DNA of 64,000 bases from Streptomyces sp. V1I1 (GTDB taxonomy: Bacteria; Actinomycetota; Actinomycetes; Streptomycetales; Streptomycetaceae), in the NCBI RefSeq assembly GCF_030817355.1, contig NZ_JAUSZH010000001.1:7415001-7479000 (forward strand), given 5' to 3'. Shown here piece after piece: positions 10,737-32,296 of this stretch. The position numbers and the translations under genes were made by a program. Position 1 is the first letter of the stretch. Each line of letters begins with the position of its first letter. The notes under the pieces are model-generated. The model worked only from the letters and a program-made list of their open reading frames with translations, searched no databases and had not been told where the DNA came from.

Positions 10737-13241
<2,505 letters not shown>

Positions 13242-13268
13242 GCCCCCACCCGTATGAAGAGGAGCGAT

Positions 13269-16623: not shown

Positions 16624-16635
16624 GGAGCCGAATCG

Positions 16636-19600
16636 ATGCTGCTCATCCCATGCCCCTGGTGCGGGCCCCGTGACGAAGCCGAATTCCACTACGGCGGTCA
16701 GGCACACGTGCCGTATCCCGAGGACAGCGCTGCCCTGACCGACCAGGAGTGGGCGCGCTACCTCTTCTTCCGCGACAACCCCAAGGGCCCGTTCGCTGAG
16801 CGCTGGAGCCATGCGGCCGGATGCCGTCGTTGGTTCAACGCTGTGCGCAATACGGCGACGAACGAGATCCTGACGGTGTACCGAGCGGGCGAGCCGAAGC
16901 CGAATCCAGCCCGTCCGGCGGAATTTGAGCCCCTCCGGCGTTTGAGGAGCGGGGTCCGGGGCGGAGCCCCGGTTACGGGAAGGGGCGGGGTGGGGGAGAA
17001 CTCCCTGGCCACCGGCGCGCACCCGGCGACGAAACCTCAGGCACTCGAGGCCGCAGGCACGGGCACTGGCACCGGCACTCAGCCCCTCCGCCTCACCACG
17101 GGCGGTCGCGTAGCCCGGGACGAACGGCTCACGTTCACCTTCGACGGCACGACGTACGAAGGCTTCCGCGGAGACACCCTCGCCTCCGCCCTCCTCGCCA
17201 ACGGCATCATCCAGGCCGGGACCAGCATCAAGCTCGGCCGCCCGCGCGGCATCTTCTCCGCCGGAGTCGAGGAGCCCAACGCCGTCGTCCAGATCGAGGA
17301 GCCGTTCCCCGAGCCCATGCTGCCCGCCACGGCCGTGGAGCTGTACGACGGGCTCGTCGCGAGCAGCCTCCCCGGCCAAGGGCGGCTCGCCACCGAACCC
17401 GACCCCGCGCGCTACGACGCCGTCCACGCCCACTGCGACCTGCTCGTCGTCGGCGCAGGACCGGCCGGACTCGCGGCCGCGTCCGCCGCCGCCGGCAGCG
17501 GCGCGCGCGTCATCCTCGCCGACGACCAGCCAGAGCTGGGCGGAAGCCTCCTCGGGACAGGCCAACTCATCGACTGGGCAGGCGAGTTGGGCGAGCGGCT
17601 CGCTGCCGAGCCCGAGGTGCGCGTGCTGCGCCGCACCACCGCCTTCGGCTACTACGACGACAATCACGTCCTCGCCGTCGAGCGCCGCACCAACCACCTC
17701 GGCGGCGAAGCCCCCGAGTACGTCTCCCGCGAGCGCGTCTGGCGCATCCGCGCCCGCCGCGTCGTCCTGGCCACCGGAGCGCACGAGCGGTCGCTCGCCT
17801 TCGCCGACAACGACCGCCCCGGCGTCATGCTGGCGGCATCCGCCCGTACGTACGCCAATCGCTACGGCGTCCTGCCCGGCCGTCGCGCCGTCGTCTTCAC
17901 CACCAACGACAGCGCCTACCCGGCCGCGCTCGACCTGGCGGCGGCGGGCGTGGAGATCGCGGCGGTCGTCGACACCCGCCTCGAACCGGGGGAGTGGGCG
18001 CGCCGCGCCCAGGACGCCGGGATCGAGGTGCTCGCCGGGCATGCCGTCACGGGCACCGAGGGCGGTGCGCGCCTCACGGCGGTGACTGTCGCCCCGTACG
18101 GAGAGTCCGCAGGGAACCGCGAGTTCGCCGTCGACCTGCTGCTGGTCTCCGGTGGATGGAACCCCGTCGCGCATCTGTTCAGCCAGGCGGGCGGAAAGCT
18201 GCGCTACGACGAGACGCTCGGCACGTTCGTCCCGGACACCTGCGGTCAGGCGGTCGAGGCCGCAGGCTCCGTCTCCGGTGTCTTCGATCTGCCCGGCGTC
18301 CTCGCTCAGGGCGCCGCGGCGGGCACCCGAGCGGTCGAGGCCGAGGGCTATGTGGCCGGCGTACCCGAGCTCCCGGTCGCGGCCGGCGAATCGCAGACCC
18401 CGTCCATGCAGGTCTTCGTCGTCCCCGGCGCCGCAGGCGCGCCCCGCTTCATCGACCTTCAGCGTGATGTCACCGTCGACGACCTCGCCCGCGCGACCGG
18501 CGCCGGTATGCGCTCGGTCGAGCACACCAAGCGCTACACCACCGCGGGCACCGCCAATGACCAGGGCAAGACCTCCGGTGTCCTCGCCAGCGGCACCGTC
18601 GCTCAGCTCCTTGGCGTGGACATCTCCGCCCTCGGTACGACGACGTTCCGCCCTCCCTACACCCCCGTTTCCTTTGCCACCCTCGCGGGCCGCGACCGCG
18701 GCGCGCTCCATGACCCTGCACGCGTGACCGCCCTGCACGACTGGCACGTTGAGCATGGCGCGCTCTTCGAGAACGTCGGTCAGTGGAAGCGGCCCTGGTA
18801 CTACCCGCAGGACGGCGAGGACATGAATGCCGCCGTGCTCCGTGAGTGCCGCGCTGCCCGAGAGGGCGTCGCCTTCATGGACGCCTCGACCCTCGGCAAG
18901 ATCGATGTGCAGGGGCCGGACGCCGCCGTCCTGCTCGACCGGCTCTACACGAACATGATGAGCACCCTCAAAGTCGGCATGATCCGCTACGGCGTCATGT
19001 GCCGACTCGACGGCATGATCTTCGACGACGGCACCGTCATCCGCCTCGCCCAGGACCGTTTCCTGGTCACCACCACGACCGGCAACGCGGCCGCCGTCCT
19101 GGACTGGATGGAGGAGTGGCTGCAGACCGAGTGGCCCGAACTGCGCGTCCACTGCACCTCCGTGACCGAGCAGTGGGCCACCGTCGCCCTCGTCGGCCCC
19201 CGCTCCCGCGACGTACTGGGCGCCCTCGCACCGGACCTCGCCGTGGACAACGACAGCTTCCCGTTCATGGCATGGCGCGAGTCGGCCGTCGCCGGAATCC
19301 CGGCCCGTGTCTGCCGGATCAGCTTCTCCGGCGAACTGGCCTACGAGATCAACGTGTCGCCGTGGGAAGCCCGCGCGCTGTGGGAGGCGCTCTACGAGGC
19401 GGGGAGCCCGTTCGGCATCACCCCGTACGGCACCGAGACCATGCACGTCCTGCGCGCCGAGAAGGGCTATCCGATCATCGGCCAGGACACCGACGGCACC
19501 GTCACCCCGCAGGACCTCGGGATGAGCTGGGCGGTGTCCAAGAAGAAGCCCGATTTCGTCGGCAAGCGATCCCACGCACGCGCCGACACCACGCGTGGCG

Positions 19601-19893
19601 ACCGCAAGCACCTCGTCGGCCTGCTCCCGGAAGACCCGGACTCGTTCCTCCCCGAGGGCACCCACCTGGTCGCCGACAGCGTGCTACCCGAGCCACCGGT
19701 GCCGATGCTCGGTCATGTCACATCGAGCTACCACAGCGCGGCGCTCGGCCGGACGTTCGCACTCGCCTTGATCAAGGGCGGCCGGGACCGCATCGGCGAG
19801 CGGCTGTTTGCACCTGTGGGCGACCGTCTGGTCCCAGTGACCGTCGCAAGTCCCGTCCTCTACGACCCCGAGGGAGCCCGCCGCGATGGCTGA
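16636..19893 (+). CDS. Fused sarcosine oxidase delta-alpha subunit
   Basis: One uninterrupted frame of 1085 residues. Residues 1-88 are a complete delta subunit with the zinc ligands of the family in register: C6, C9, H59 and C63. Residues 95-118 are encoded by a GC-rich dispersed repeat (DNA about 16921-16975), followed by a Gly/Thr-rich linker to about 149. From residue 150 on it is the alpha subunit: a 2Fe-2S-like N-domain (DTLASALLANGIIQAGTSIKLGRPRG), an NAD/FAD domain (CDLLVVGAGPAGLAAASAAA) and a C-terminal GcvT-like folate domain. In most genomes soxD and soxA are separate. An in-frame GTG at 16990 after GGGAAGGGG could give free alpha, but no stop separates the parts. A lost stop by sequencing error should be excluded. 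Confidence 0.9.
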   Translation: MLLIPCPWCGPRDEAEFHYGGQAHVPYPEDSAALTDQEWARYLFFRDNPKGPFAERWSHAAGCRRWFNAVRNTATNEILTVYRAGEPKPNPARPAEFEPLRRLRSGVRGGAPVTGRGGVGENSLATGAHPATKPQALEAAGTGTGTGTQPLRLTTGGRVARDERLTFTFDGTTYEGFRGDTLASALLANGIIQAGTSIKLGRPRGIFSAGVEEPNAVVQIEEPFPEPMLPATAVELYDGLVASSLPGQGRLATEPDPARYDAVHAHCDLLVVGAGPAGLAAASAAAGSGARVILADDQPELGGSLLGTGQLIDWAGELGERLAAEPEVRVLRRTTAFGYYDDNHVLAVERRTNHLGGEAPEYVSRERVWRIRARRVVLATGAHERSLAFADNDRPGVMLAASARTYANRYGVLPGRRAVVFTTNDSAYPAALDLAAAGVEIAAVVDTRLEPGEWARRAQDAGIEVLAGHAVTGTEGGARLTAVTVAPYGESAGNREFAVDLLLVSGGWNPVAHLFSQAGGKLRYDETLGTFVPDTCGQAVEAAGSVSGVFDLPGVLAQGAAAGTRAVEAEGYVAGVPELPVAAGESQTPSMQVFVVPGAAGAPRFIDLQRDVTVDDLARATGAGMRSVEHTKRYTTAGTANDQGKTSGVLASGTVAQLLGVDISALGTTTFRPPYTPVSFATLAGRDRGALHDPARVTALHDWHVEHGALFENVGQWKRPWYYPQDGEDMNAAVLRECRAAREGVAFMDASTLGKIDVQGPDAAVLLDRLYTNMMSTLKVGMIRYGVMCRLDGMIFDDGTVIRLAQDRFLVTTTTGNAAAVLDWMEEWLQTEWPELRVHCTSVTEQWATVALVGPRSRDVLGALAPDLAVDNDSFPFMAWRESAVAGIPARVCRISFSGELAYEINVSPWEARALWEALYEAGSPFGITPYGTETMHVLRAEKGYPIIGQDTDGTVTPQDLGMSWAVSKKKPDFVGKRSHARADTTRGDRKHLVGLLPEDPDSFLPEGTHLVADSVLPEPPVPMLGHVTSSYHSAALGRTFALALIKGGRDRIGERLFAPVGDRLVPVTVASPVLYDPEGARRDG
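16921..16975. repeat. Dispersed GC-rich palindromic repeat captured inside a coding region
   Basis: The segment contains CCCCTCC-GGCGTTTG-AGGAGCGGGG type arms and GGGGCGGAGCCCC, the standard layout of Streptomyces intergenic repeats. Bases 16935-16948 are identical, in reverse complement, to 3773-3786 in the intergenic repeat cluster. Here it is translated as part of the delta-alpha linker of sarcosine oxidase. Confidence 0.7.
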
Positions 19894-20479
19894 CACCGCT
19901 ACCCGCCACAGCCCCCTGGCGCACGCCGCCGGCCGCTTCGCCGCGGCCACCCGCGCCTCGGGCGGCGACGTGCGCCTGGCCGAACTGCCTTTCCTCGCCC
20001 AGGTCAACGTCCGGCTCGACCCCAAGGGGCCGGCTGCCGACGCCGTCGGGCTTGCCCTAGGTCTCCAACTGCCCCTCGAACCCAACACCGTCGTACACGC
20101 CGGTGACCGCTCTGCCCTCTGGCTCGGCCCCGACGAATGGCTCGTCGTCGGCCCGCCCGGCAGTCAGGCGGGCCTGGAGCACCAGATCCGGGCTGCTGCC
20201 GGCGACGAGCCGGCAGCGGTCACGGACGTCTCGGCCCAGCGCACCACCCTGCTCGTCGCGGGCCCTCGCGCCCGCGACCTGCTGGCCCACGGCTGCCCGC
20301 TGGACCTGCACCCGCGTTCCTTCGGGCCTGGCCGCTGTGCCCAGACCACCCTGGCCCGCGCGCAGGTCGTGCTGGTTGCACGCGACGAGGCCCGGGCCGG
20401 GTTCTGGCTGCTGGTCCGTTCGTCCTTCGCCGGGTATATGGCGGACTGGCTGTTGGATGCCGCGTCGGAGTACGTCTGA
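19886..20479 (+). CDS. soxG: Sarcosine oxidase gamma subunit
   Basis: Protein of 197 residues of the SoxG family, related to a truncated GcvT fold: LAELPFLAQVNVRLDP near residue 32, a WLGPDEWLVVGPPG motif near 75-88, VTDVSAQRTTLLVAGPRARDLLAHGCPLDLHP, and a C-terminal VRSSFAGYMADWLLDAASEY. It completes the four subunits of the enzyme. The ATG at 19886 lies inside the end of the delta-alpha gene (8-bp overlap). It is the last gene of the dimethylglycine oxidase operon. Confidence 0.92.
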   Translation: MADTATRHSPLAHAAGRFAAATRASGGDVRLAELPFLAQVNVRLDPKGPAADAVGLALGLQLPLEPNTVVHAGDRSALWLGPDEWLVVGPPGSQAGLEHQIRAAAGDEPAAVTDVSAQRTTLLVAGPRARDLLAHGCPLDLHPRSFGPGRCAQTTLARAQVVLVARDEARAGFWLLVRSSFAGYMADWLLDAASEYV

Positions 20480-20744: not shown

Positions 20745-21815
20745 CTAGGTCTTACGACCCTGGAGCTGATGGCGCCGGTCGCCGGTCTGCAGGTCCGGCA
20801 GTCGGCCCGGTCGCGTCGGTGGCGCGGGGGAGGGCGCCCATGAACCGGCGGACACCTCGTCGGAGTTGAGCACGGCCTCGCCGTACAGATCCTGCAGCCA
20901 ATTGGCCTGGTAAATGGTGTCGAGGTAGCGATCGCCCAGGTCCGGGGCGATGGCCACCGCGGTGATTTCACGCGCGTCATGCTGCGTCAGCCAGCCCATC
21001 GCGCCGCTGACCACCGTGCCGGTGGAGCCGCCGAACAGGAATCCGTGCCTGGCCAGACGATGGCACGTACGGATGGTGTCCGCCTCCTCGACGCGTATCA
21101 CCTCGTCCACATAGGACTCGTCGAGCAGCGGCGGACGGATGCTCATGCCCAGGCCGGGAATCATCCGGCGGCCTGGCGCACCACCGAAGGCCACCGAACC
21201 GACGCTGTCCAGTGCGATGATCCGCACCGGCCGGTGCCACTCACGGAAGTAGCGCGCGCAGCCCATCAGGGTCCCGGTAGTGCCGGCTCCGATGAACAGC
21301 ACGTCCAGCCCCGGGAACTGGCGGGCGATCTCCGGCCCTGTCTTGCCGTAGTGCGCCTTCCAGTTGCTCGGATTGGTGTACTGGCTGAGCCACACGTAGC
21401 GGTCGTCGGAGGCGCACAGTGCGCGGACGTAGTCGAGCCGCGCGCCCAGGAAGCCGCCGTAGGCCTCCTGTCCGGCGACGATGTGCACCTGGCTGCCCAA
21501 CGCCTCCATCATCAACCGGGTCGACAGGTTGCAGCGGGAGTCCGTCACGCACAGGAAGCGGTAGCCCTTGCTCGCCGCGATCATGCTCAGCGCCACGCCG
21601 AGGTTTCCGGACGAGGACTCGACCAGGATCGAATCCGGCGTCAGGACTCCATCCCGCTCAGCGGTCTCCACCATCTCGGTCGCGGCCTTCAGCTTGATGG
21701 AGCCGGCGAAGTTGAAGCCCTCACACTTCAGGAATAGCGAGTGCCCGAAGATCGACCGAAGGTCGACATAGAGCTCTTCTTCATTGAAGGCGTAAGGAAC
21801 AGATATGACGGGCAC
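20745..21815 (-). CDS. SbnA-like PLP enzyme, probable N-(2-amino-2-carboxyethyl)-L-glutamate synthase
   Basis: PLP-dependent enzyme of 356 residues of the cysteine synthase superfamily. FNFAGSIKLKAA carries the PLP lysine (K41), VESSSGNLGVALSMIAAS the phosphate/substrate loop, and LFIGAGTTGTLMGCARYF the glycine-rich PLP phosphate cup. SbnA joins O-phosphoserine and glutamate; SbnB then releases 2,3-diaminopropionate and 2-oxoglutarate. Its pairing with an SbnB-like gene supports this over cysteine synthase. The GTG at 21813-21815 has GAGGAG about seven bases upstream. The last 25 or so residues (APSPAPPTRPGRLPDLQ onward) exceed the family length and run into the LtrA remnant, so the native C-terminus may have been altered. 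Confidence 0.82.
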   Translation of the reverse strand: MPVISVPYAFNEEELYVDLRSIFGHSLFLKCEGFNFAGSIKLKAATEMVETAERDGVLTPDSILVESSSGNLGVALSMIAASKGYRFLCVTDSRCNLSTRLMMEALGSQVHIVAGQEAYGGFLGARLDYVRALCASDDRYVWLSQYTNPSNWKAHYGKTGPEIARQFPGLDVLFIGAGTTGTLMGCARYFREWHRPVRIIALDSVGSVAFGGAPGRRMIPGLGMSIRPPLLDESYVDEVIRVEEADTIRTCHRLARHGFLFGGSTGTVVSGAMGWLTQHDAREITAVAIAPDLGDRYLDTIYQANWLQDLYGEAVLNSDEVSAGSWAPSPAPPTRPGRLPDLQTGDRRHQLQGRKT

Positions 21816-21857
21816 GATGGTCTCCTCACCTGCAGCAGAGCATGGGGGAGCCCTGCG

Positions 21858-21959
21858 TCAGCGGCCGCGGTCCAGTACGCCCTGATCTGCGGCGACTTGA
21901 CCGGCGATCTCTCCTGGGATTACTCCTGCATAGGCCTCCTGGGCTCTCGGCCGGCTCAT
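21858..21959 (-). CDS. Possible 33-residue coupled peptide between the sbnB- and sbnA-like genes
   Basis: An ATG overlaps the sbnB-like stop (ATGA at 21959-21956) and opens a 33-codon frame beginning MSRPRAQEAYAGVIPGEIAG and ending VLDRGR. The overlap is the same as at other junctions of this operon. Against coding: third positions are unusually A-rich for this genome and no family is recognised. It may be a chance frame or the decayed tail of a gene. Confidence 0.2.
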   Translation of the reverse strand: MSRPRAQEAYAGVIPGEIAGQVAADQGVLDRGR

Positions 21960-23026
21960 CCGTACCGGCTCAGTTCGTGGAAGAAGTCGTCGACTACGTG
22001 CAACTCTCCGGAGCGGACCACCTCGTCGTAGACGTACTTGCCGACGGCGAGGTCGAGCACCCCGAGGCCGAAGGGCGAGAACACCACCGGCCGGTCTGCC
22101 GGCAGCGTCACCCGCCCGGCCATCACGTCGTCCAACGTGCCGTGCAGGAACTCCCGGTTGCCCGTGAGCTGCTCGGCCAGATGCGGCGACGTGTTGGCCT
22201 TCAGACAGTGCTCGACGTCATCGACGATGTTGGTCGAGGCGAGCACGATCTCCGGCGCGAGGTCGCGCAGCGACAGGTGCAGCACCAGCGGATTGTGTGC
22301 GAACGTCGACACGTCCCTGACGTGCGGCTCACCGGCGACGGTGGCGAAGATCACCAGGTCGCTGAGGCGGATCAACTTCTCGGCGCTGTCGTGCACGGTG
22401 ATCCGACCGGCGGTGCCCGACTGCTCCAGGTAGCACCGGAAGCCGGACGCGCTGTCGGCGGACAGGTCGTGCACGCCGATCTCGTCGAACGACCAGCCGG
22501 TGCCGGCCAGGAAGGTGTGGACGTAGCGGGCGATCAGGCCCGTCCCGATGAACCCGACGCGCGTCGGCCGCGGCCGGCCGTGGCTGAGGCATTCGGCCGC
22601 CGACGCCGCCGAAGCGGCCGTCCTGCTGGCGCTGATGATCGAGCTTTCCAGACAGGCGAACGGGTAGCCGGTGTCATGGTCGTTGAGGATCAGCACGGCC
22701 GAGGCCCGCGGGATGCCTGCCGTCACGTTCTCCGGGAAGCTGGAGATCCACTTCAGGCCGTCCACCCGCACCTCCCCGCCGATCGAGGCGGGCAACGCGA
22801 TGATCCGGGAGGAGGGGCGGTCGGGGAAACGCAGGAAGTAGGACGGCGGGTTCACCGAATGACCGGCGCTGTGCAGCCGGTAGGTGGCCTCGACCAACTC
22901 CACGATCTCCTTCTCGCGCCCCTGCAGCACGCGCTGAACCTGGGCACCGGAGATCACCGCGAACGGTGGCACAGTGATCGGCTCGGACATTGCGGACTCC
23001 GTGGCGGTGGGACGGATGGGGGTCAT
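21956..23026 (-). CDS. SbnB-like ornithine cyclodeaminase-family dehydrogenase (2,3-diaminopropionate synthesis)
   Basis: Protein of 356 residues of the ornithine cyclodeaminase/mu-crystallin family. FRFPDRPSSRIIALPASIGG and VDGLKWISSFPENVTAGIPR belong to the substrate half; RVGFIGTGLIARYVHTFLAG is the NAD-binding motif; SPFGLGVLDLAVGKYVYDE is the C-terminal signature. SbnB oxidatively hydrolyses N-(2-amino-2-carboxyethyl)-glutamate to 2,3-diaminopropionate plus 2-oxoglutarate. The ATG at 23024-23026 overlaps the dioxygenase stop (ATGA), which decides the start; the ATG at 22988-22990 would give a protein closer to SbnB length. Released 2-oxoglutarate could feed the neighbouring dioxygenase. 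Confidence 0.85.
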   Translation of the reverse strand: MTPIRPTATESAMSEPITVPPFAVISGAQVQRVLQGREKEIVELVEATYRLHSAGHSVNPPSYFLRFPDRPSSRIIALPASIGGEVRVDGLKWISSFPENVTAGIPRASAVLILNDHDTGYPFACLESSIISASRTAASAASAAECLSHGRPRPTRVGFIGTGLIARYVHTFLAGTGWSFDEIGVHDLSADSASGFRCYLEQSGTAGRITVHDSAEKLIRLSDLVIFATVAGEPHVRDVSTFAHNPLVLHLSLRDLAPEIVLASTNIVDDVEHCLKANTSPHLAEQLTGNREFLHGTLDDVMAGRVTLPADRPVVFSPFGLGVLDLAVGKYVYDEVVRSGELHVVDDFFHELSRYG

Positions 23027-24027
23027 CCTGCGGTCACCTCGACGGTCGGCGAGCAGTCGGCCAGGCGCACCGCGTCGGCCATCGCGACGAGCACTTCGCG
23101 CGGTCCCTCGAAGGGCTCCCTGCTGTGCGAGGTGCGGACGTTGTCGACGAGCATCAGGTCGCCGGCCTGCCACGGCTCGCGTGCGGTGTTGTCCTCGTAG
23201 ACCTGGTTGAGCAGCTGCACGACGTCCTCGCCGATCGGGTCGCCTTCGCCGAAGCGGGTATTGAACGGCAGTCCGTCGGCGCCGTAGACGTCCACCAGGT
23301 ACTCGCGCACCTCGGGGGCTATCGTCCACTCGTTGAGGAACGCGATCTGGTTGAACCAGCAGCGCCGGCCGGTGACCGGGTGTCGCACCACGGCGCTGCG
23401 GCGCTGCCTGGTGCGCAGTCCACCGTCGGGCTGCCACTCGAACTCGATCGCGTTGGCACGGCAGTAGCTCTCGACGGCGCCCCGGTCCTCGGTGCCGAAC
23501 GCCTCGGCCACGGACGCCCCGATCTCGTCGTTGTAGCTGCGGGTGAGCAGCCAGCCCTCCCGCTCGAACCGCTGGGTCAACTCGGTGGGCAGTGCGTCGA
23601 GCACGGTCTGTGAGTCGGCCACCGCGGTAGCCCCGCCCTCGGTGGGCGCACTGAGGCACGCGAACAGCATCAGGCCGGGGAACTCGAGCCGGTAGCTCAG
23701 TTCGTGGTGCATGCACATCGGCTGGTTCGGCGGCCACTGCGATGAGGAGTACACGCCGTCGGCGTAGGCCCGCCGAGGCGCGAAGGCCTCCTTCTCGGTC
23801 ATCAGCCCGGTGGTCAGCCTCGAGAAGACGGCACCGGTCTCGGCCGCGTCGCGCAGCCCGAGGCCGCGCGCCAGGACCGAACCGTGCTCGGCGACGACGG
23901 CGCGCAGCGCGTCCCGGTGCTCGGCCGCCCAGCTCAGCGCGTCGCCGGTGGTCTCGACCCGCAGCATCGGAGGTTTGCCGGGTTGCAGCTCCAGGTCGAG
24001 CAGTGACGCCTGGGATGAGGACGACAT
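23023..24027 (-). CDS. TauD/TfdA-family Fe(II)/2-oxoglutarate dioxygenase
   Basis: Protein of 334 residues. The metal-binding HxE motif is H107-H108-E109 (NQPMCMHHELSYRLEFPG), and the distal His is in NVRTSHSREPFEGPREV near residue 305; the Arg after it should bind 2-oxoglutarate. Family members in NRPS clusters (SyrP-like) often hydroxylate the beta-carbon of an amino acid, sometimes while it is bound to a carrier domain, so hydroxylation of diaminopropionate or another residue is possible. The ATG at 24025-24027 follows AGGAAAACGAG. It lies between the NRPS and sbnB-like genes in one operon. Confidence 0.82.
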   Translation of the reverse strand: MSSSSQASLLDLELQPGKPPMLRVETTGDALSWAAEHRDALRAVVAEHGSVLARGLGLRDAAETGAVFSRLTTGLMTEKEAFAPRRAYADGVYSSSQWPPNQPMCMHHELSYRLEFPGLMLFACLSAPTEGGATAVADSQTVLDALPTELTQRFEREGWLLTRSYNDEIGASVAEAFGTEDRGAVESYCRANAIEFEWQPDGGLRTRQRRSAVVRHPVTGRRCWFNQIAFLNEWTIAPEVREYLVDVYGADGLPFNTRFGEGDPIGEDVVQLLNQVYEDNTAREPWQAGDLMLVDNVRTSHSREPFEGPREVLVAMADAVRLADCSPTVEVTAG

Positions 24028-24050
24028 CTCGTTTTCCTTTCGGTCGCGGC

Positions 24051-27000
24051 TCAGGAAGAAGTCAGCAATTCGGCGGCGCGCAGCACGGCCTTGGCCGCCT
24101 CGGTCGGACGGGTGCGCAGGAAGTAGTGGCCGCCGTCGGCGAGTTCGTGCAGGTCGACGCGCTCGGCCAGGAGCTGCCAGTCGCGGTGGCGGCGTGGGAA
24201 CTCGGCCGTGTGCGGGTCGTCGGTGGCAACGACCACGGTGACCGGCGCGGACAGCTTCACCGTCGGCGGGGCGTCCAGGGTGTCGGCGAAATAACGGTGT
24301 GCGGCGACGCAGTCGTGCCGGTAGGCGGCACCGATATGCTCGGCGTGCTGCGCATCCAGCTCACCGAGCTCGGTGTAGCCGCTGTCCGCGCCCAGCCCCG
24401 CGGCGATCTCGGCGTTGCTCCGCCCGGTCAGCTCGGTGATGGCGGCGCGCCGGTCGGTGGCGTCACCGAGCAACTGCGCGCCAAGGAACACCCGCTGGAC
24501 GTCCACCCCGCGCTCTTGCAACTGCCTGGCTGTCTCCACAGCCAACGCGGCGCCCGAGGAGTGGCCCCACAGCAGGACCCTGGTCAGGCCACGCCGGGTG
24601 ATCTCGGCGATGACCTGTTCGACCACCTGTGCGATCGGCGCGAACGGCTCGCTCTCGGCGGCCACGTCGTGACCGGGCAGCTCGACGGCGTAGACCGCCA
24701 GGCCATCGGCCGGCAGTGCCCTGGCCATCGGCTGGAAGTTCACCGCGTTGCCGCCGGCGTAGGGGAAGCACACCAGGGCAGCGGCCTGCGCGCGGTCCGA
24801 TTCCGACAGTGGCTGCAGCAGCCCGGAGCGCCGCTCGGACCTGCCGTCGACCAGCTCGGCCAGATCAGCGAGGATCGGGTGACGGGTGACGTCCTTGAGG
24901 GTCACCGCACGGTCCAGGGTAATCGCCAGCTTCACTGCCGACAGCGACGTGCCGCCCCGGTCGAAGAAGTGGTCCCGCCGTCCGATCTGGTTCTCCGGAA
25001 TGCCAAGTACCTTCGCCCATGCGACCGCCAGCCGCTCTTCGGTGGGCGTACTCGGCGCGCGGTAGTCGTCCTCGACGACGTCGAGCTCTCCGGCGAGCGC
25101 CACCAGCGTCTTCTTGTCGATCTTGCTGTTGGCCGTCAGCGGCAGACTTTCCCGCCAGTGGAAGGCAGACGGGACCATGTACTCGGGCAGTGAAGCACCG
25201 AGCCGGTGCAACAGGACGTCGGCCTCGAGTGGCTGCCGGCCGGAGTAGAAGGCCACCAGGTGCTTGCTCTGGTCGGCGCGTTCGGCCACCACCACCGCGC
25301 CGTCGCGGACGCCGGGTATCCGCAGCAGGGTGTTCTCGATCTCGCCGATCTCGATCCGGAACCCGCGGATCTTGACCTGGGTATCGCGGCGGCCGAGGAA
25401 CTCCAGCTTGCCTTCAGGCTGCCAGCGGCCGTAGTCGCCGCCGAGGTAGAGCCGCATGCCTTCGCGGTGCGGATCCGCCAGGTAAGCCGCCTGGGTGCGT
25501 TCGGGGTCGTTGATGTAGCCGCGGCCGACACAGACCCCGGAGAAAGCGATCACACCCGGGGCACCCAGCGGCACCGGTGCGAGGTGTTCGTCGACGACGT
25601 AGACATGCACATTGTTGACCGCGCGGCCGAGCAGGATTCGGTCCGGCACCCGGTCCATGACCTCGTGGTTGGTGTCGTCCGAGGTCTCGGTCAGCCCGTA
25701 AGCGTTGACCAGCTTGATCTCCGGCTCGGCCGCGAACCAGCGCTCGGCGAGCTCCTTCTTCAGCGCCTCACCGGTCACCGACACGTACCGCAGGTCCGGC
25801 AGCTCGCGGGGGTGCTGCTCCAGACAGGACACGACGACTTCCAGGTAGGAGGGTACGACCTGGAGCACCGCGACCCGGCCGTCAATGATCTTGTCGACGA
25901 ACTGTTGGACGTCCAGGATCACTTCCTGCTCGACCAGCAGGGTCCGCCCACCGACCAGGAGCGCGGAAACCAGTTGCCACAGGGAGATGTCGAAGCACTG
26001 AGGTGCGGTCTGGGCGACCACCTGCCCCTCGCCGATCTCCAGGTCGTCGATCTTGGCGTAGAGGTGGTTGAGCATGCCCGCGTGCTCGCACATCGCACCC
26101 TTGGGCTCACCTGTGGAGCCGGAGGTGAAGTAGATGTAGGCGAGTTGGTCCGGCGCGACGCCGACGCCGAGATCATCGTCGGCATGGTCCTCTTCGTAGG
26201 CCGCCTCGACGAAGAGCCTCTGGACTCCGGGCAGGGAGTCGAGTGCCTGATCGAGGGTGGTGGTGCTGCCGGATTCGGTCAGCACCAGGGTGCATTCGGC
26301 ACGGGAGAGCGTGGCCCTGATGCGTTCGGCCGGGAAGTGCGGCTCGATGGGCAGGTAGACGCCACCGGCCTTGAAGACAGCGAGGACGGCGGCCATCCAG
26401 TCCAGGTTGCGCTCGGTCACCACCGCGACGACACCTTCGCGGCGCAGCCCCCGCGCCAACAGGGCTCGCCCCAGCCGGTTGGCACGGCTGTTGAGCTCCC
26501 CATAGGTCCACTGCCGGTCGCCGTGCACGGCTGCGACGGCGTCCGGGTGTGCCCTCGCCCGCTGCTCGAACAGTTCGTGGAACCGGCGGTCCGGCAGGTC
26601 CCGGCGCGGTCCGGCGAACCCTTCGAGCTGGAACTGGAGTTCCTCGGCGGAGAGCAGGCTCTGCCGCCCGTGCTCGGCATCCAGATCGGCGGCGATCAGT
26701 GCGAGTGCGGTGAGGTGATAGCCGGCGATCCTGGCGGCACAGTCCGCGTCGAGCACGTCGGTCCGATACCGCAACCGCAGCAGGAGTTGGCCCGCGTGCT
26801 GCGCGAACCCCACCCACAGCGCCGTGCCTTCGGCGAGATCGCCGCCGACGTCGGCCGGATCGAACACGGTCTCGAGCGACGGTTCGGTCAGGCCCAGCTC
26901 TGCCTTAAGACCATCGACCGCAAAGCCCTTGTGCGACAGCAGTTCTGACTCGACTTGATGGGTGTTCAGCAGCAGCGTCCGCCACGAGTCGGGTTCGGTC

Positions 27001-27305
27001 GTCAGCCGGCAGGGCAACGGTTGGCCGCCCTCCACGGCGACGTAGCCGGTCACGACCTCGTGCTCGCCGGACAGCGCAGCGAGCACCTTGGCATGCGCGG
27101 CCAGCAGCACCGAGTTGAGCGGAACCGCCAGGTCCTCCGCCAGTCGGCACAACGCTCCCACGACGTCGCCCGGGATCGTCGCCTCGTGCTCGTCAACGCC
27201 CGTCAGCGGATTGAGCGTCCATCGCGGAATCGTGGTGAATCCACCGGCGACGAGCACGCCGCGCCAGAACTCCCGCTCGGCTTCCACTTGCGCTCCCATC
27301 GTCAT
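24051..27305 (-). CDS. Single-module NRPS: partial condensation domain, adenylation, carrier, thioesterase
   Basis: Protein of 1084 residues. Residues 1-225 resemble only the C-terminal lobe of a condensation domain; the HHxxxDG site is absent. An adenylation domain spans about 240-740 (YIYFTSGSTGEPKGAM; NAYGLTETSDDTNHEV; YGRWQPEGKLEFLGRRDTQV), then a carrier domain with FFDRGGTSLSAVKLA, and a thioesterase (LVCFPYAGGNAVNFQPM; GHSSGAALAVE). By hand alignment to GrsA the specificity code reads D-I-W-Q-S-T-A-D-D-K; two acidic residues near the pocket end suit a basic side chain such as diaminopropionate (inference). The ATG at 27305 overlaps the upstream stop (ATGA); the ATG at 27299 is an alternative with better spacing to GGAGG. 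Confidence 0.9.
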   Translation of the reverse strand: MTMGAQVEAEREFWRGVLVAGGFTTIPRWTLNPLTGVDEHEATIPGDVVGALCRLAEDLAVPLNSVLLAAHAKVLAALSGEHEVVTGYVAVEGGQPLPCRLTTEPDSWRTLLLNTHQVESELLSHKGFAVDGLKAELGLTEPSLETVFDPADVGGDLAEGTALWVGFAQHAGQLLLRLRYRTDVLDADCAARIAGYHLTALALIAADLDAEHGRQSLLSAEELQFQLEGFAGPRRDLPDRRFHELFEQRARAHPDAVAAVHGDRQWTYGELNSRANRLGRALLARGLRREGVVAVVTERNLDWMAAVLAVFKAGGVYLPIEPHFPAERIRATLSRAECTLVLTESGSTTTLDQALDSLPGVQRLFVEAAYEEDHADDDLGVGVAPDQLAYIYFTSGSTGEPKGAMCEHAGMLNHLYAKIDDLEIGEGQVVAQTAPQCFDISLWQLVSALLVGGRTLLVEQEVILDVQQFVDKIIDGRVAVLQVVPSYLEVVVSCLEQHPRELPDLRYVSVTGEALKKELAERWFAAEPEIKLVNAYGLTETSDDTNHEVMDRVPDRILLGRAVNNVHVYVVDEHLAPVPLGAPGVIAFSGVCVGRGYINDPERTQAAYLADPHREGMRLYLGGDYGRWQPEGKLEFLGRRDTQVKIRGFRIEIGEIENTLLRIPGVRDGAVVVAERADQSKHLVAFYSGRQPLEADVLLHRLGASLPEYMVPSAFHWRESLPLTANSKIDKKTLVALAGELDVVEDDYRAPSTPTEERLAVAWAKVLGIPENQIGRRDHFFDRGGTSLSAVKLAITLDRAVTLKDVTRHPILADLAELVDGRSERRSGLLQPLSESDRAQAAALVCFPYAGGNAVNFQPMARALPADGLAVYAVELPGHDVAAESEPFAPIAQVVEQVIAEITRRGLTRVLLWGHSSGAALAVETARQLQERGVDVQRVFLGAQLLGDATDRRAAITELTGRSNAEIAAGLGADSGYTELGELDAQHAEHIGAAYRHDCVAAHRYFADTLDAPPTVKLSAPVTVVVATDDPHTAEFPRRHRDWQLLAERVDLHELADGGHYFLRTRPTEAAKAVLRAAELLTSS

Positions 27306-29890
27306 CCCCCTCCCCTCACGGTCGCCACGGTGTTGGGGGCCGCCGAACAGGGCGGCGCCGCAGTCGTCGTCGGCTGATAGTGATCCCGCATCTCCGCGGC
27401 TGGGTTTCCTCCCCACCGTGCGTGCTGGGGGATCTCCTCGCCTTTCATGAGGAAGGAGTCGGCGGCGAGCACTGCGCCGTCGCCTATGGTCACGCCGTAG
27501 TGGATGTGGGCACCGACACTGAGGGTGCAGCCGGCACCGATCGTGTTGTGGTCGGACTTGAAGGTGCCGTCCTCCTGCGAGTGGCACTGGATTTTGCTTC
27601 CCGCGTTGAGCGTGCAGTCGTCCCCGATGGTGACGAGCGTCCGTTCCGTCAACATGCAGCCGTCGTCGAAGAGCCGGCAGCCGAGCCGAACACCCAGCAG
27701 GCGCCAGATCACGTTCTTGAAGGGGGTGCCATTGAAGACATTGAAGTACTCGACAGGCACCTTCCAGAGACGCTCGTGCAACCAGAAGTTCGCGTCATAG
27801 ATGGAGCACAACTGCGGTCGCAGCGCGCGGAATGCCGTGATGCCACGCTCCACCAGTACGAAGTAGACAGCGGTGAACCCAAGGACGAGCGCCAGGGACG
27901 CAGCGATCACTACCTGCCCGAAAGCACCGTAATAATCGACGGTCGCAAGGCCGAGCAGCGTGAGAACGAAGAAGTGCAGCCAGCGCACGAACAGGAACAA
28001 GCCCATCGTGCGGATGTTGTAGCGGTTCTTTTCCGCGAGGTTGCGGCGCAACTCGTCCCCGGTCCGGAGATGGTCGAACCGGCTGTCGCGCTCCACCGAC
28101 CGGGGAATCTCGAAGCACGGCGAGCCGAGCAGGCCCACTCCCTCGCGGACCTCGCCGTCGAGCGGAATCATCACCTTCGTTGCGAGGAGGCAGTTGTCGC
28201 CCGTCCTGCCCCCTGAGGGATAGGCGATGTTGTTCCCCAGGAAGTTATGCGGCCCGATCGACGCTCGGGACACGAGGAAGGATGTGCTCGAGAAGTCGGC
28301 ATTGATGATGGAGAGCCCGTCGGCGATCATCGTTCCGCTGCCGACAGAGCTCAGGTACGGCGTCTCGTGCTGCACTTCCGTGCCGAAGTTCGACCCGGTC
28401 TGCTCGACATGAGACAAGTCGTATCCGAGGCCGCGCAAATAGTGAACGATGTAGGAGCTGTCACCGAAGAGCCATTTGTAGAACTTTATGTTCGTCATGC
28501 GCGCGATCGCCCGGTGCGCGGAGTAATGGAAGCCGTACAGCGGATAGACCTTGTCCGGCTTGATGAATAGGTTCAACAGGCGCGGAATGGTGAGCAATGC
28601 GGCGAAACCCACGACGGCGAAGCCGAAGAAGAGCACGAGGGAAAGGACCAGCGCGTCGATGAAGAGCTCCGGCGACGTGATCCCCACCGTGCCCGTGCCC
28701 AGTACGTTGCTCAGCGCCGGGACCTCGGTCAGCAGCATGTACGCGCCCCCGACGGTCAGCGGCACGTACAGGAAGATCACCTGGAGCAGGGTGAGGAGGC
28801 CGTAGCCGGCCCGGCGCAGCGTGCCGCAGCGCGCCGGCGCGACCCTCACGTAGTCGAGTTCCGTGCGCTGTGCCGGGGATCCGTGCCACCGCTGGCCGTC
28901 CGGGACCACCTGGCCGCTTTGAAGCGCGGAGGTGTGGCCGAGCTGCGCCCTGTCGCCCATCGACGTGTCGATGTCGAGCACGGTCTTCTCGCCGATGAAC
29001 ACGTCCCGGCCGAGGGTGACGGGGCCGGTCTGAATGCGCCCACTGTGCGCCCGGTAGCAGAGGAAGAACGCTTCCTTACGGATCACGGTGCCGGCGCCGA
29101 TCGTGAGCAGGTCGGTGCAGACCGGAATGGTGCGGGAATGGATGGTGACACCCTTCCCGATCCGCGCGCCGAGGGCCCGCAGGTACAGCACGTACAGCGG
29201 ATTGCCGACGAACAAGATCATCGGGTTGGCGTGGACCAGCGCCTTGACTGTCCAGAAGCGCAGATATGTCAGACCCCAGACTGGGAACTCGCGGGGTTCC
29301 CAGCGGCCGATGAGGATCCATTTGGCCACGATCGGGAACGTGCACAGGCCAACGAAGCCGGCGCCGCCGAAGAGGACCGACCGCAGGTAGATGTCGCTCA
29401 AACCTGAGCCGGCGGAGACCCACTCGTAGCCCCGGGCGGTGACATTTCCGGCGAGGAAGCAATACCCGAGGAAAATCAGGAACTGAAGCGTTCCGCATAG
29501 GACGTACTGCAGCGTGCTGGCCGGTGTCACCACCTTGGTCGACGCCGGGACCGACGACTCGGCAGGGGTGGGTGCTGTGTCCGCGAGCGCCGCCACCAGG
29601 CTTCGGATTGTTGGGTTTTGGTAGACGTCCTTCATCGACACCGATGGCAGGTCCGCCTGCTTCCTCACCCGTGCACAGAAATGGGCCAGCACCAACGAAT
29701 TGGCGCCGAGGTCATCGAAATAGTGGCTGTCGACCGACACCCGCTCGACGCCCACGACGTCGGCCAGCACCTCGGCCAGCATATCCTCGAGGTTTTTCTC
29801 GACGCCGGTCTTCGGGCCGGTGTACCTGCGCTTGGTGATAGCAGATTCATCCGGCCCGGGCGTCAAAACCTCGACAGATTCATCTTCCAT
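27302..29890 (-). CDS. Carrier domain plus Pls/PosA-type membrane terminal domain (poly-amino-acid synthetase-like), lacking an adenylation domain
   Basis: Protein of 862 residues. A carrier domain lies at about 30-105 with S65 in FDDLGANSLVLAHFCARV as the phosphopantetheine site. The rest has about six membrane segments (for example 127-150 and a pair near 360-430) separating three soluble blocks with left-handed beta-helix-like hexapeptide character (GARIGKGVTIHSR; VTLGRDVFIGEKTVLDID; IGDDCTLNAGSKIQCHS). This layout is that of the C-terminal part of poly(epsilon-L-lysine) and poly(diaminopropionate) synthetases, which there follows an A-T pair in the same chain. Here the A domain is on the next gene. 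The ATG at 29888-29890 follows AAGGGG; a longer frame to 30025 has no better start. Confidence 0.88.
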   Translation of the reverse strand: MEDESVEVLTPGPDESAITKRRYTGPKTGVEKNLEDMLAEVLADVVGVERVSVDSHYFDDLGANSLVLAHFCARVRKQADLPSVSMKDVYQNPTIRSLVAALADTAPTPAESSVPASTKVVTPASTLQYVLCGTLQFLIFLGYCFLAGNVTARGYEWVSAGSGLSDIYLRSVLFGGAGFVGLCTFPIVAKWILIGRWEPREFPVWGLTYLRFWTVKALVHANPMILFVGNPLYVLYLRALGARIGKGVTIHSRTIPVCTDLLTIGAGTVIRKEAFFLCYRAHSGRIQTGPVTLGRDVFIGEKTVLDIDTSMGDRAQLGHTSALQSGQVVPDGQRWHGSPAQRTELDYVRVAPARCGTLRRAGYGLLTLLQVIFLYVPLTVGGAYMLLTEVPALSNVLGTGTVGITSPELFIDALVLSLVLFFGFAVVGFAALLTIPRLLNLFIKPDKVYPLYGFHYSAHRAIARMTNIKFYKWLFGDSSYIVHYLRGLGYDLSHVEQTGSNFGTEVQHETPYLSSVGSGTMIADGLSIINADFSSTSFLVSRASIGPHNFLGNNIAYPSGGRTGDNCLLATKVMIPLDGEVREGVGLLGSPCFEIPRSVERDSRFDHLRTGDELRRNLAEKNRYNIRTMGLFLFVRWLHFFVLTLLGLATVDYYGAFGQVVIAASLALVLGFTAVYFVLVERGITAFRALRPQLCSIYDANFWLHERLWKVPVEYFNVFNGTPFKNVIWRLLGVRLGCRLFDDGCMLTERTLVTIGDDCTLNAGSKIQCHSQEDGTFKSDHNTIGAGCTLSVGAHIHYGVTIGDGAVLAADSFLMKGEEIPQHARWGGNPAAEMRDHYQPTTTAAPPCSAAPNTVATVRGGG

Positions 29891-30254: not shown

Positions 30255-31763
30255 TCACACCGCCATGGGCCGGTCCGTCGGGGCGATCGGGGCCGGGAGC
30301 ACGGTGGAGCCGGTGAGATAGAGGTCGGTGGCCGCCGCTGCGGCCCGTCCCTCCGCGATGGCCCACACCACCAGCGATTGGCCGCGTCCCGAGTCGCCCG
30401 CGACGAACACGCCCTCCGCCTTGACGCGATCTGTCTGCTTCGCCTGCGCTGCTACGGCCGCGAAGCCGGCGTCCCGCGCGAAGTTTCCCCGCCCATCCAG
30501 CGTAAGCCCGAGCTGCTCCATCACGCCGCTGCCCCGCTCGGGACCGGAGAAGCCGAGGGCGAGCAGCACCAGCTCGGCCGGGATCATCCGCTCGGTGCCC
30601 TGCCGCGGCCTTCTGGCCTCAGGCTCCACTTCCGTCAGGTGCACCGCGCGCACGTGGCCGGCCCGGTTCCCCTCGAAGCGGAAGGTGGCGCAGGAGAAGA
30701 GCCTCGGATCCGTACCCTCCCGCCCCCGGGCCTCTTCATGGGCATGGGAGATCCGGTAGACCTTCGGATGGACGGTGGGCCAGGGCTCGCTGTCCGGCCG
30801 GGCGCCACCCGGCTCGGGGTTTATGTCCAGCTGCACCACGGAGGCCGCGCCCTGGCGCAGCACGGTGCCCAGGCAGTCCGATCCCGTGTCCCCGCCGCCG
30901 ATGATCACCACGTGCTTGCCCTCGGCGGTGACGGGGGGCGCTGCATAGTCGCCCTCCGTGACCCGGTTGGCGAGGGTCAGGTAGTCCATTGCCTGATGGA
31001 TGCCGCACAGCTCGCGGCCGGGTACGGAGATTTCCCGCCGCTCCGTGGCCCCGACAGCTACGACCACCGCGTCGTGGCGCCTCCTGAGCTCGGTGGCGTC
31101 CAGATCGCTGCCGACCTTCACACCGGTGCGGAACTTCGTGCCCTCTGCACGCATCTGCTCGATACGGCGGTCCAGGTGCCGCTTCTCCATCTTGAACTCG
31201 GGGATGCCGTAGCGCAGCAGCCCGCCGATGCGGTCGGCGCGCTCGTAGACGGCGACGGTGTGGCCGATTCGGGTGAGCTGTTGCGCCGCCGCCAGTCCCG
31301 CGGGTCCGGAGCCGATGACAGCGACCGTCTTCCCGCTCAGCCGCTGCGGCGGCTGCGGTGGCGCGTACCCGCGCTCCCAGATCTGGTCGGCGATGGCCTG
31401 CTCGACGTTCTTGATCGTGACTGGATCGGCATTGATGGCCAGTACACAGGCATCCTCACACGGCGCCGGGCAGAGTCGCCCGGTGAACTCAGGGAAGTTG
31501 TTGGTCGCGTGCAGCCGCTCGGCCGCGGCCCGCCAGTCGCCCCGCGCCGCGTACGCGTTCCACTCGGGGATGAGATTCCCCAGCGGGCAGCCGCTGTGGC
31601 AGAACGGTATGCCGCAGTCCATGCAGCGCCCTGCCTGCTCGGAGACGAGCGGCAGCAGCGTCTGTCCTGTGTGGACCTCGTTCCAGTCGCTCAGGCGTTC
31701 CTCGACGGGGCGCGCCACACTGGGCCGACGGGGGGTCTTGAGGAAGCCGTGGGGGTCGGTCAT
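30255..31763 (-). CDS. gltD: Glutamate synthase small subunit or GltD-like oxidoreductase
   Basis: Protein of 502 residues. The N-terminus carries the Cys-rich Fe-S motif (GRCMDCGIPFCHSGCPLGN, and LCPAPCEDACVL), followed by an FAD-binding motif (TVAVIGSGPAGLAAAQQL, about 150-167) and an NADPH-binding motif (HVVIIGGGDTGSDCLGTVL, about 290-308). GltD passes electrons from NADPH to the large subunit GltB for glutamate synthesis. The ATG at 31761-31763 has GGAGG eight bases upstream. No gltB is adjacent, which is unusual; it may serve another partner or support glutamate demand of the SbnA-like enzyme, but both ideas are inference. Confidence 0.88.
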   Translation of the reverse strand: MTDPHGFLKTPRRPSVARPVEERLSDWNEVHTGQTLLPLVSEQAGRCMDCGIPFCHSGCPLGNLIPEWNAYAARGDWRAAAERLHATNNFPEFTGRLCPAPCEDACVLAINADPVTIKNVEQAIADQIWERGYAPPQPPQRLSGKTVAVIGSGPAGLAAAQQLTRIGHTVAVYERADRIGGLLRYGIPEFKMEKRHLDRRIEQMRAEGTKFRTGVKVGSDLDATELRRRHDAVVVAVGATERREISVPGRELCGIHQAMDYLTLANRVTEGDYAAPPVTAEGKHVVIIGGGDTGSDCLGTVLRQGAASVVQLDINPEPGGARPDSEPWPTVHPKVYRISHAHEEARGREGTDPRLFSCATFRFEGNRAGHVRAVHLTEVEPEARRPRQGTERMIPAELVLLALGFSGPERGSGVMEQLGLTLDGRGNFARDAGFAAVAAQAKQTDRVKAEGVFVAGDSGRGQSLVVWAIAEGRAAAAATDLYLTGSTVLPAPIAPTDRPMAV

Positions 31764-31906
31764 GCGCCGCCTCCGTCGCCATCCGCGGTGCATTACGGCG
31801 TTCTGGACAGGATACGCCCACTTTGTTGCGTTTTGACCTGAGTGGGTTTGGGTCGGTTGTCTGCTGCGCCGGTGCGCGGCCTGGAGCGGCAGGCGTTCAT
31901 TCCTTG
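31764..31906. promoter_or_regulatory. Promoter region of gltD
   Basis: About 140 bp upstream of the gltD start, with GGAGG next to the ATG and an AT-richer block (31800-31850) that could hold the promoter. No operator is recognised. Confidence 0.3.
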
Positions 31907-32090: not shown

Positions 32091-32296
32091 TGGTATCTCC
32101 CACCGAGAGGCCCCCTGTGCGGACCGCCCCGAGCCCATGCTCCCGGCTTCTGCGCCAGGTTGTATCGCGTGCTGAAGTCGTCTGCGGCTGCCACATCGCT
32201 CATGTCGCGCGGCATCCGCGCCACCCGTCTGACGGCACCTGGGTGAGCGACTTCGCCGCAGTGGGGTACTCCTTGTCCTGGGAGACGGGAGAAGTC

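Follow-up and report, generated by a model that had tools for sequence, protein, structure and literature searches.

The Pls/PosA family, whose products are isopeptide-linked cationic homopolymers, includes synthetases of epsilon-polylysine, poly-Dab and delta-polyornithine; in the accessible part of one account, its known members are single chains whose adenylation (A) domain signatures begin with Asp and have Glu as their third residue; at position 2, Phe is reported for PDAP and PDAB synthetases and Ala for the lysine-type enzymes (PMC10522769). The available text on Streptomyces albulus PD-1, a known source of beta-poly-2,3-diaminopropionate (beta-poly-Dap) of 0.5-1.5 kDa, presents its synthetase PDAPs as a single chain with the order A-T-Pls (T, carrier) and without a thioesterase (TE) (PMC4668381). 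Recombinant Pls by itself forms an ester at the C-terminus of the polymer, according to an excerpted report (PMC9606270).

Related chemistry is also found on separate proteins. In capreomycin biosynthesis, the portion of the account available states that CmnA-A1 loads L-Dap onto CmnI-T in trans (PMC12400406). In the dapdiamide pathway, again as partly accessible, DdaD, a protein of 578 aa, tethers a Dap derivative for oxidation by DdaC, which epoxidises a fumaramoyl group (PMC12451424). The ramoplanin and enduracidin systems have separate A-T proteins with an N-terminal extension, which in the ramoplanin case is required for complementation in trans (review PMC8949500).

The window considered here is a stretch of 64,000 nucleotides from Streptomyces sp. 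V1I1. An earlier note had placed five genes on its minus strand at 20745-29890, and all five are confirmed there by profile matches, with a remnant of a condensation (C) domain falling below its cut-off (Table 1). They encode T-Pls, a truncated-C/A-T-TE protein (C*-A-T-TE), a TauD dioxygenase of the HxE type, SbnB and SbnA, so that the gene content bears out the note's divided Pls-type synthetase with two carriers, joined to Dap synthesis. Genes overlap as ATGA at two junctions: the T-Pls stop with a possible A-T-TE start (ATG 27305), and the TauD stop with the SbnB start (ATG 23026, a later ATG at 22990 also being possible). Like PDAPs with NjxA/NjxB, the operon combines a Pls-type terminal domain and carrier with SbnA- and SbnB-like Dap enzymes. 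With PDAPs compared by description, it differs in that its A domain has another signature and sits on a second protein, one that brings a carrier of its own; its Dap genes adjoin the synthetase, whereas those of PDAPs do not, and it has a TauD gene, whereas the account of PDAPs, as far as available, describes none (PMC4668381).

Table 1. Features of the operon, in positions of the window
Feature	Position	Strand	Basis
T-Pls, carrier plus Pls/PosA-type terminal domain, six hydrophobic helices, no A domain, 862 aa	27302..29890	-	PF00550, TIGR02353, hydropathy
Carrier domain of T-Pls, Ser65 in LGANS	29585..29779	-	PF00550, residues 83-147 of P0005
Pls/PosA terminal domain, three soluble blocks between helices	27398..29500	-	TIGR02353, residues 176-876 of P0005
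C*-A-T-TE (probable C-domain remnant, adenylation domain, carrier, thioesterase), 1084 aa	24051..27305	-	profile matches, code DIWQSTADDK
Adenylation domain, signature DIWQSTADDK	25122..26570	-	PF00501, PF13193, alignment
TauD-type Fe(II)/2-oxoglutarate dioxygenase	23023..24027	-	PF02668, invariants, AlphaFold model
SbnB-type enzyme, 2,3-diaminopropionate synthesis	21956..23026	-	TIGR03944
SbnA-type enzyme, 2,3-diaminopropionate synthesis, GTG start	20745..21815	-	TIGR03945

The T-Pls reading frame, which opens with the ATG at 29890, matches TIGR02353 along the whole profile (1-695 of 695) with 900.8 bits against a cut-off of 423.1. Six hydropathy peaks set apart the three soluble blocks, in keeping with the six or seven transmembrane helices expected of a Pls/PosA synthetase, and it is on hydropathy that the six-helix topology rests; the AlphaFold model, built from a 15-row alignment without L140, L143, L151, L160, L167 and some further proteins, has a pLDDT of 38.4. 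Ser65 and many other positions are invariant in alignments of 12 and 15 rows, window included, and the idea that T-Pls is a decayed relic was rejected on these grounds. A loose carrier motif occurs in 159 of 164 T-Pls rows and the other five retain the Ser in variants (CANS, SADS), the motif being loose enough that L107 also passed although its carrier core looks missing by eye. In the window and the split loci the A domain belongs to another protein than the carrier and terminal domain of T-Pls. Among loci with the C*-A-T loader, only L122 (genome G105) joins them on a single protein, of 2323 aa and in the different order T-Pls-C*-A-T-TauD, with SbnB and SbnA adjoining.

The loader matches the AMP-binding (256.7 bits), PP-binding (30.8) and Thioesterase (71.4) profiles, all above cut-offs. 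The region before its A domain looks like a C-domain remnant; a working C domain was rejected, since the Condensation match is below cut-off (18.5 against 30.6) and the HHxxxD motif is absent in the 18 split loci checked. In this apparent likeness to a C domain it differs from the ramoplanin and enduracidin extensions, for which the review reports no homology (PMC8949500), and unlike in those systems the partner of the A-T protein is a polymerase domain. Of 154 rows searched for the motif in the A-T carrier, 149 have it; four of the remaining five are cut off, L175 is not.

By alignment, the A-domain signature is DIWQSTADDK, in positions that we take to follow GrsA numbering. It has Asp at position 1 and Trp at position 3, and the operon thus shares TIGR02353 with the Pls/PosA family while departing from the family's Glu3, as given in the accessible account (PMC10522769). 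The same signature was read in 154 A-domain rows, which are not independent, since they count the reference, contain some loci twice and include L212; close to it come DIWQCTADDK, read once (L118), and two rows truncated just ahead of the final residue. For these counts and those of the carrier motifs, frames had to reach 250 aa and matches 300 or 600 columns. DIWELTADDK occurs in an unrelated NRPS whose gene directly precedes annotated sbnA and sbnB, and DIWQATCDDK stands beside TauD and a PLP/lyase/kinase set. Such signature neighbours next to sbnA and sbnB suggest that the A domain prefers L-Dap. The earlier note had named activation of an unrelated amino acid as an outcome that would speak against it; the code, assigned by similarity, favours Dap as the substrate.

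The supply of Dap is indicated by both pathway enzymes, SbnB (TIGR03944, 419.2 bits against 326.9) and SbnA (TIGR03945, 379.5 against 349.95) scoring above curated equivalog cut-offs. TauD matches PF02668 with 151.2 bits (cut-off 27), and its putative metal residues His107, Glu109 and His301 and putative cosubstrate residue Arg310 do not vary across 20 aligned rows, the window's among them. The closest fold to its AlphaFold model (pLDDT 78.6) is 1y0z, the Arabidopsis gene product At3g21360, and the predicted structure leaves the reaction unfixed. The earlier note had spoken of a possible hydroxylase and a hydroxylated oligomer. A dioxygenase is indeed present; the hydroxylated residue is chemically awkward, as Dap oxidised at the beta position becomes a carbinolamine if its beta-amine is free. 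A simple beta-hydroxy-diaminopropionate should be unstable, the carbinolamine being expected to collapse, so TauD may work later or otherwise: after acylation, by desaturation, or on another substrate instead.

The operon is common. All five genes are found in 69 of 78 genus loci, the window's own included (63 collinear, six with SbnA divergent), and in 74 of 80 GTDB loci; these 80 are the most similar among 515, share some members with the 78 and over-represent TE-bearing forms. The gene order proposed in the earlier note thus recurs, and the clustering of A, TauD, SbnB and SbnA beside T-Pls far exceeds chance. The note had also considered that a full-length Pls synthetase might be the true neighbour in close relatives; in none of the 69 genus loci with all five genes does a Pls-type A domain precede T-Pls, although the same query did detect such domains in L035 and L038. 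A distant, partial exception is a plasmid of Pseudonocardia (L208), where TauD comes after a fused A-T-Pls. A T-Pls relative occurs in 71 of 199 genus genomes (four of the 71 with only the fused kind), and a TIGR02353 match above cut-off in 110 of 199 among the matches listed. The genus loci were drawn from those matches, with at most five candidates per genome scored, and form a set without L035, L038, L120, L121 and the fused L123-L126. The divided machine looks widespread in Streptomyces. Four orphan T-Pls loci (L105, L107, L111, L165) lie in genomes that also hold an A-T gene cluster, complete in three and running off the contig in the fourth (L069).

Two components vary in different ways. 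Of 74 genus loci with the A gene, 72 also have TauD, the exceptions being L073, which is cut by the contig end, and L104, truly without TauD. Within its 20 kb, L104 has T-Pls, A and SbnA, and neither TauD nor SbnB was matched. In L115, T-Pls and TauD are accompanied by an unrelated A domain (DASVATMRSK). The TE of the earlier note is present in the window and is not general: it was found in 37 of 69 complete genus loci, three of them weak (31-34% identity), and not found in 32, and its presence or absence needs five label changes on the tree. No general role can therefore rest on the TE; an essential release enzyme was rejected, and the TE is, as judged from these loci, dispensable.

The loading half also has a life of its own. 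C*-A-T, TauD, SbnB and SbnA occur in the same order in 10 of 15 loci without a Pls match nearby, TauD stands with the A-T gene in these 15 loci, and the signature is DIWQSTADDK in 15 of 15. The sequence behind the earlier note showed these genes beside T-Pls only; to judge by their arrangement, C*-A-T(-TE)/TauD/SbnB/SbnA is a portable cassette, found beside ordinary NRPSs too. In S. albulus PD-1, the accession numbers of NjxB (EXU92121.1) and the NRPS EXU92123.1 hint that these two, with any gene lying between, may be this same cassette; its Dap enzymes would in that case already have been assayed. The Pls domain is 51-54% identical to the fused A-T-Pls enzymes L123-L126, whose relatives include fusions to diaminobutyrate aminotransferase and whose code DFECLSVVTK would fit the Phe2 given for PDAP/PDAB synthetases in the available text (PMC10522769). 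A Pls tree of 68 rows chosen from 296 available (L121 was too short) was rooted on the genome's own lysine-type synthetase, a rooting discarded for its identity of about 25% and the length of the branch on either side, 5 changes per column. With that row removed, two label changes are needed to account for split and fused rows; 47 split rows without L122 form one side (support 82), and a single clade of 48 split rows including L122 is not rejected (AU p 0.477). A single origin of the split rows, neither shown nor rejected by the tree, is not claimed; the divided form appears, by sequence, to be a variant of the polylysine-type synthetases.

The reading that best explains the operon is a portable 'oxidised-Dap' cassette coupled to an A-less Pls polymerase. 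SbnA and SbnB would make L-2,3-diaminopropionate, which the stand-alone A domain would activate and load onto the carrier of its own chain and, in trans, onto that of T-Pls, so that one A domain would serve two carriers. The described parallel is CmnA-A1, likewise a single L-Dap A domain for its own carrier and that of an A-less protein; CmnI has an ordinary C domain where the operon has a Pls membrane domain, and trans-loading in the operon is our inference (PMC12400406, in the part available). TauD would then oxidise carrier-tethered Dap, and the Pls domain would join residues iteratively via the beta-amine and itself release the chain; the TE, where present, would edit or recycle the A-T carrier. 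What is observed comprises the genes and their order, their conservation, a single natural fusion and the cassette standing without Pls; Dap specificity, trans-loading, a tethered substrate for TauD, the beta-linkage and the oxidised nature of the product are inferred from them. We consider this proposal, taken whole, rather probable. Points against it are the expected collapse of beta-oxidised Dap whose amine is free, the patchy occurrence of the TE, the loci L104 and L115, and orphan T-Pls genes on two plasmids (L213, L214), beside which the plasmids carry no annotated A-T gene. A bolder extension is put forward tentatively, as a possibility that we would not yet expect to hold: that about a third of Streptomyces species make an undescribed oxidised-Dap oligomer or polymer, with dehydro- or N-acyl-carbinolamine residues, on a two-carrier, one-A-domain divided Pls machine whose loading and oxidising part moves as a cassette and has been taken up by polymerases and ordinary NRPSs alike.

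Plain beta-poly-Dap would also follow from a Pls-type domain together with SbnA and SbnB, and has its precedent in S. albulus PD-1 (PMC4668381, as accessible); the Pls domain would polymerise unmodified Dap while TauD acts elsewhere or only on chain ends. The near-constant presence of TauD with the A gene, its fusion behind the A-T carrier in L122 and its place beside the A-T gene where Pls is missing indicate that TauD is part of the monomer cassette, and make this reading unlikely. Equally improbable is a short peptide or capped dipeptide, in which oxidised Dap from the cassette would be coupled just once or a few times by the Pls domain: two carriers fit a defined dipeptide, and the known Dap polymer is itself only 0.5-1.5 kDa (PMC4668381, in the part available), but the full 695-position Pls domain is retained with its helices and blocks, and the five-gene set has no second A domain. 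A comb-like Dap-Dap polymer, with its backbone from one carrier and side residues from the other, gains something from the full-length synthetase also encoded in this genome, whose code has Ala at position 2; it leaves TauD without a role, no account of genes for such a polymer was found in the open-access literature, and we think it quite improbable.

The logic of DdaD and DdaC (PMC12451424, as partly accessible) suggests instead an antibiotic of the dapdiamide kind, in which the A-T-TE protein tethers a Dap derivative, TauD oxidises it, the TE releases it and T-Pls is incidental. An A-T protein and a TauD-type enzyme are common to both, as adjacent genes in the operon and fused in L122, and C*-A-T-TE with TauD does occur without Pls nearby. 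Against this, the TE was not found in nearly half of the complete genus loci and T-Pls is naturally fused to the rest in L122. Dapdiamide clusters encode ATP-grasp amide ligases and a fumaramoyl supply. The two genes flanking the operon in the window encode a glutamate synthase subunit and SoxG, neither a ligase by profile matches, and no flanking gene is common to most loci, the commonest family occurring in only 15 of at most 80 compared. Such an antibiotic is very unlikely.

In single-chain Pls synthetases the roles of the parts and chain release are hard to tell apart; here the A-T(-TE) loader and the T-Pls polymerase come naturally as separate proteins, with which loading, oxidation and polymerisation can each be tested. 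Common as the operon is, no description of it was found in the open-access literature (subscription papers lay outside the scope). The portable Dap-loading and oxidising cassette also marks further NRPS clusters.

The five genes that the earlier note had described are confirmed by Pfam and NCBIfam matches. They run in the order T-Pls (a carrier with a Pls/PosA-type terminal domain but no A domain), C*-A-T-TE (the loader), TauD, SbnB and SbnA. The T-Pls protein scores 900.8 bits with TIGR02353 (NCBIfam cut-off 423.1), SbnA and SbnB each exceed an equivalog cut-off (TIGR03945 and TIGR03944, NCBIfam), and TauD is identified by a PF02668 match (Pfam). In the loader, AMP-binding, PP-binding and Thioesterase all exceed their Pfam cut-offs; its N-terminal part (C*) looks like a C-domain remnant, since the Condensation match is below cut-off and spans merely profile positions 186-278 of 456 (Pfam), and since no HHxxxD motif was found before the A domain in any of 18 split loci. 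Six hydropathy peaks in T-Pls divide three soluble blocks, and soluble blocks set off by helices in this way are also described for Pls and for PDAPs, the poly-diaminopropionate synthetase of S. albulus PD-1 (PMC4668381). ATGA overlaps between the T-Pls stop and the A-T-TE start, and between the TauD stop and the SbnB start, point to a single coupled operon.

Positions of the operon and of other features in the window
Feature	Position	Strand	Length
Five-gene set	29890 to 20745	minus	
T-Pls	start ATG 29890	minus	862 aa
C*-A-T-TE	start ATG 27305	minus	1084 aa
Glutamate synthase small subunit frame	30255-32138	minus	
Frame with AMP-binding domain, outside the operon	44107-46704	plus	866 aa
Run resembling a folate/sarcosine oxidase operon	10803-20479	plus	

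The A-T(-TE)/TauD/SbnB/SbnA cassette is read as a portable unit that would make a single building block, load it and oxidise it, with the Pls polymerase as one customer, because the same signature and gene order recur without Pls nearby; this extends the original interpretation. With the C*-A-T part as query (E <= 1e-220), 89 places were found in 77 of 199 genus genomes, and 74 of them adjoin T-Pls by coordinates. The other 15 (L219-L233) were searched in stretches of 13-20 kb, which gave no Pls match, and some of their source genomes have T-Pls elsewhere. All 15 carry the window's A-domain signature, DIWQSTADDK, and in 10 of them the A-T gene is followed by TauD, SbnB and SbnA, ordered as in the window. 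Seven of these 10 have further A domains of NRPS type within the stretch and are candidates for clusters that use an oxidised diaminopropionate unit. In the remaining five a TE is present, TauD is divergent, an SbnA-like protein (30-31% identity) lies upstream, and no SbnB match was found within the 13-20-kb stretches. Two published leads may be set beside these loci. In S. albulus PD-1 the diaminopropionate enzymes NjxA and NjxB are reported as adjacent to each other and away from the PDAP synthetase gene; NjxB is EXU92121.1 and a table of the same paper contains the NRPS EXU92123.1 (PMC4668381), a spacing that fits SbnB, TauD and A-T of the cassette when accession numbers alone are compared. 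A proteome study places S. scabies SbnB near sbnA and an NRPS gene (PMC11479980).

The signature is nearly invariant across 154 A-domain rows, which are not independent, and it resembles the codes for small polar residues. A similar code, the serine code DVWHFSLVDK, occurs in an NRPS of locus L218; the second A domain of this NRPS has DIWELTADDK, and annotated sbnA and sbnB directly follow its gene. In locus L210 the code is DIWQATCDDK, and TauD lies nearby together with genes for a lyase, a GHMP kinase and a PLP enzyme. The C*-A-T-TE of L212 carries DIWQSTADDK itself, and enzymes of these three kinds (lyase, GHMP kinase, PLP enzyme) adjoin it too, a set like that of 2,3-diaminobutyrate pathways. 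Taken together, these codes and neighbours favour L-2,3-diaminopropionate (L-Dap) as the loader's substrate; the code by itself would suit 2,3-diaminobutyrate or another close homologue as well.

In the proposed mechanism, SbnA and SbnB would make Dap, one A domain would load both carriers, TauD would oxidise the tethered residue, Pls would couple through the beta-amine, and the TE, present in about half of genus loci, would edit. Each of several steps has a reported precedent: CmnA-A1 charges CmnI-T in trans with L-Dap (PMC12400406), DdaC acts on a Dap derivative that DdaD tethers (PMC12451424), stand-alone A-T modules, some N-terminally extended, complement modules without a working A domain (PMC8949500), and Pls forms C-terminal esters unaided (PMC9606270). 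TauD residues His107, Glu109, His301 and Arg310, with putative roles assigned by analogy, are kept in 20 of 20 aligned rows, the window included. A natural fusion in genome G105 (L122) joins T-Pls, C*, A, T and TauD, in that order, in a single 2323-aa frame with SbnB and SbnA next to it. Because TauD here occupies the TE's place after the A-T carrier, the fusion suggests that this carrier holds the residue on which TauD acts. Chemistry calls for caution about the hydroxylation that the earlier note had considered: a hydroxyl group placed on the beta-carbon of Dap while the amine is free would yield a carbinolamine. A simple hydroxy acid is therefore less likely than a dehydro-residue, an in-chain N-acyl carbinolamine or later oxidation.

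Is the set simply a divided member of the known synthetases? Those carry A-T-Pls on one chain, and Glu at position 3 of the signature is reported as conserved among Pls-type enzymes (PMC10522769); the window loader's signature lacks it. Neither the single chain nor the signature was found, so the five-gene set is not a plain member; it would act as a Pls-type synthetase that receives its residues in trans. Its Pls domain is 51-54% identical to the fused A-T-Pls enzymes L123-L126 (signature DFECLSVVTK), with an aspartokinase-like gene adjoining L123 and L125 (translations judged by eye). A diaminobutyrate aminotransferase is fused to two database relatives, and a Skermanella relative lies next to ectB. 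By these likenesses, fusions and neighbours the polymerase half is assigned to the poly-Dab/poly-Dap kind; the loader half does not belong to it. Two Pseudonocardia plasmids have the oxidase in common with the window, though not its loader: in L208 a fused A-T-Pls (DLERLSTVT-, as against DIWQSTADDK) is followed by a TauD 56% identical to the window's, and L216, from an ant-associated strain, has its A and Pls parts annotated as two genes, a TauD (54%) after the Pls part and, farther along, a cysteine synthase-like protein that shares 32% identity with SbnA of the window. The tree is compatible with a single origin of the split rows but does not demonstrate one.

A relative of the window's T-Pls occurs in 71 of 199 genus genomes (E <= 1e-150), four of which (G060, G096, G150, G165) have the fused kind only; across the phylum sample, matches at 1e-100 were found in 6 of 396 genomes and 3 of 236 genera. 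The proposed search for the gene order bore out the arrangement, with A, TauD, SbnB and SbnA all adjoining T-Pls in 69 of 78 genus loci (63 collinear, six with SbnA reversed). The original interpretation, a divided polymerase joined to Dap synthesis, is partly supported; a TE is found in 37 of the 69, three of these being weak matches. Among the nine incomplete loci, four (L069, L073, L096, L118) lie at the end of a contig or in a short stretch, L104 is without TauD and SbnB, three (L105, L107, L111) are orphan T-Pls genes, and L115 has an unrelated A domain downstream, its A-T gene seeming to have been deleted from inside. In GTDB, 74 of the best 80 of 515 loci are complete; 79 of these 80 come from Streptomyces records and one from Kutzneria sp. 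744. Orphans without A-T nearby also include L165 and the plasmids L213 and L214. The genomes of L105, L107, L111 and L165 have another cluster with an A-T gene; the carrier query matches L105 twice, and the carrier's serine region is apparently missing from L107.

Three TIGR02353 genes exceed the cut-off in the window's genome: the window T-Pls, that of another split cluster at 8.107 Mb (L034), which has no TE and whose SbnA is divergent, and, at 3.449 Mb, a full-length A-T-Pls. The two split clusters are 90.1% identical in the A domain, and 65.7% in Pls, 64.0% in the C remnant and 70.4% in TauD. Since the A domains are far more alike than these other parts, it is probable that gene conversion has kept them alike, preserving the same substrate. 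A domains of three other within-genome pairs are 75-82% identical, and at the DNA level identity rises to 98-100% in stretches of the A domain. The full-length synthetase has the signature DAESIGTVV; Ala at position 2 is also reported for lysine-type enzymes, and the strain may also make epsilon-polylysine.

Around the operon, residues 20-46 of the glutamate synthase frame match the FAD-binding monooxygenase domain PF01494, perhaps a fragment that precedes the real start. The folate/sarcosine oxidase-like run, recognised by its opening residues and by a SoxG match to its last gene, ends convergent to SbnA.
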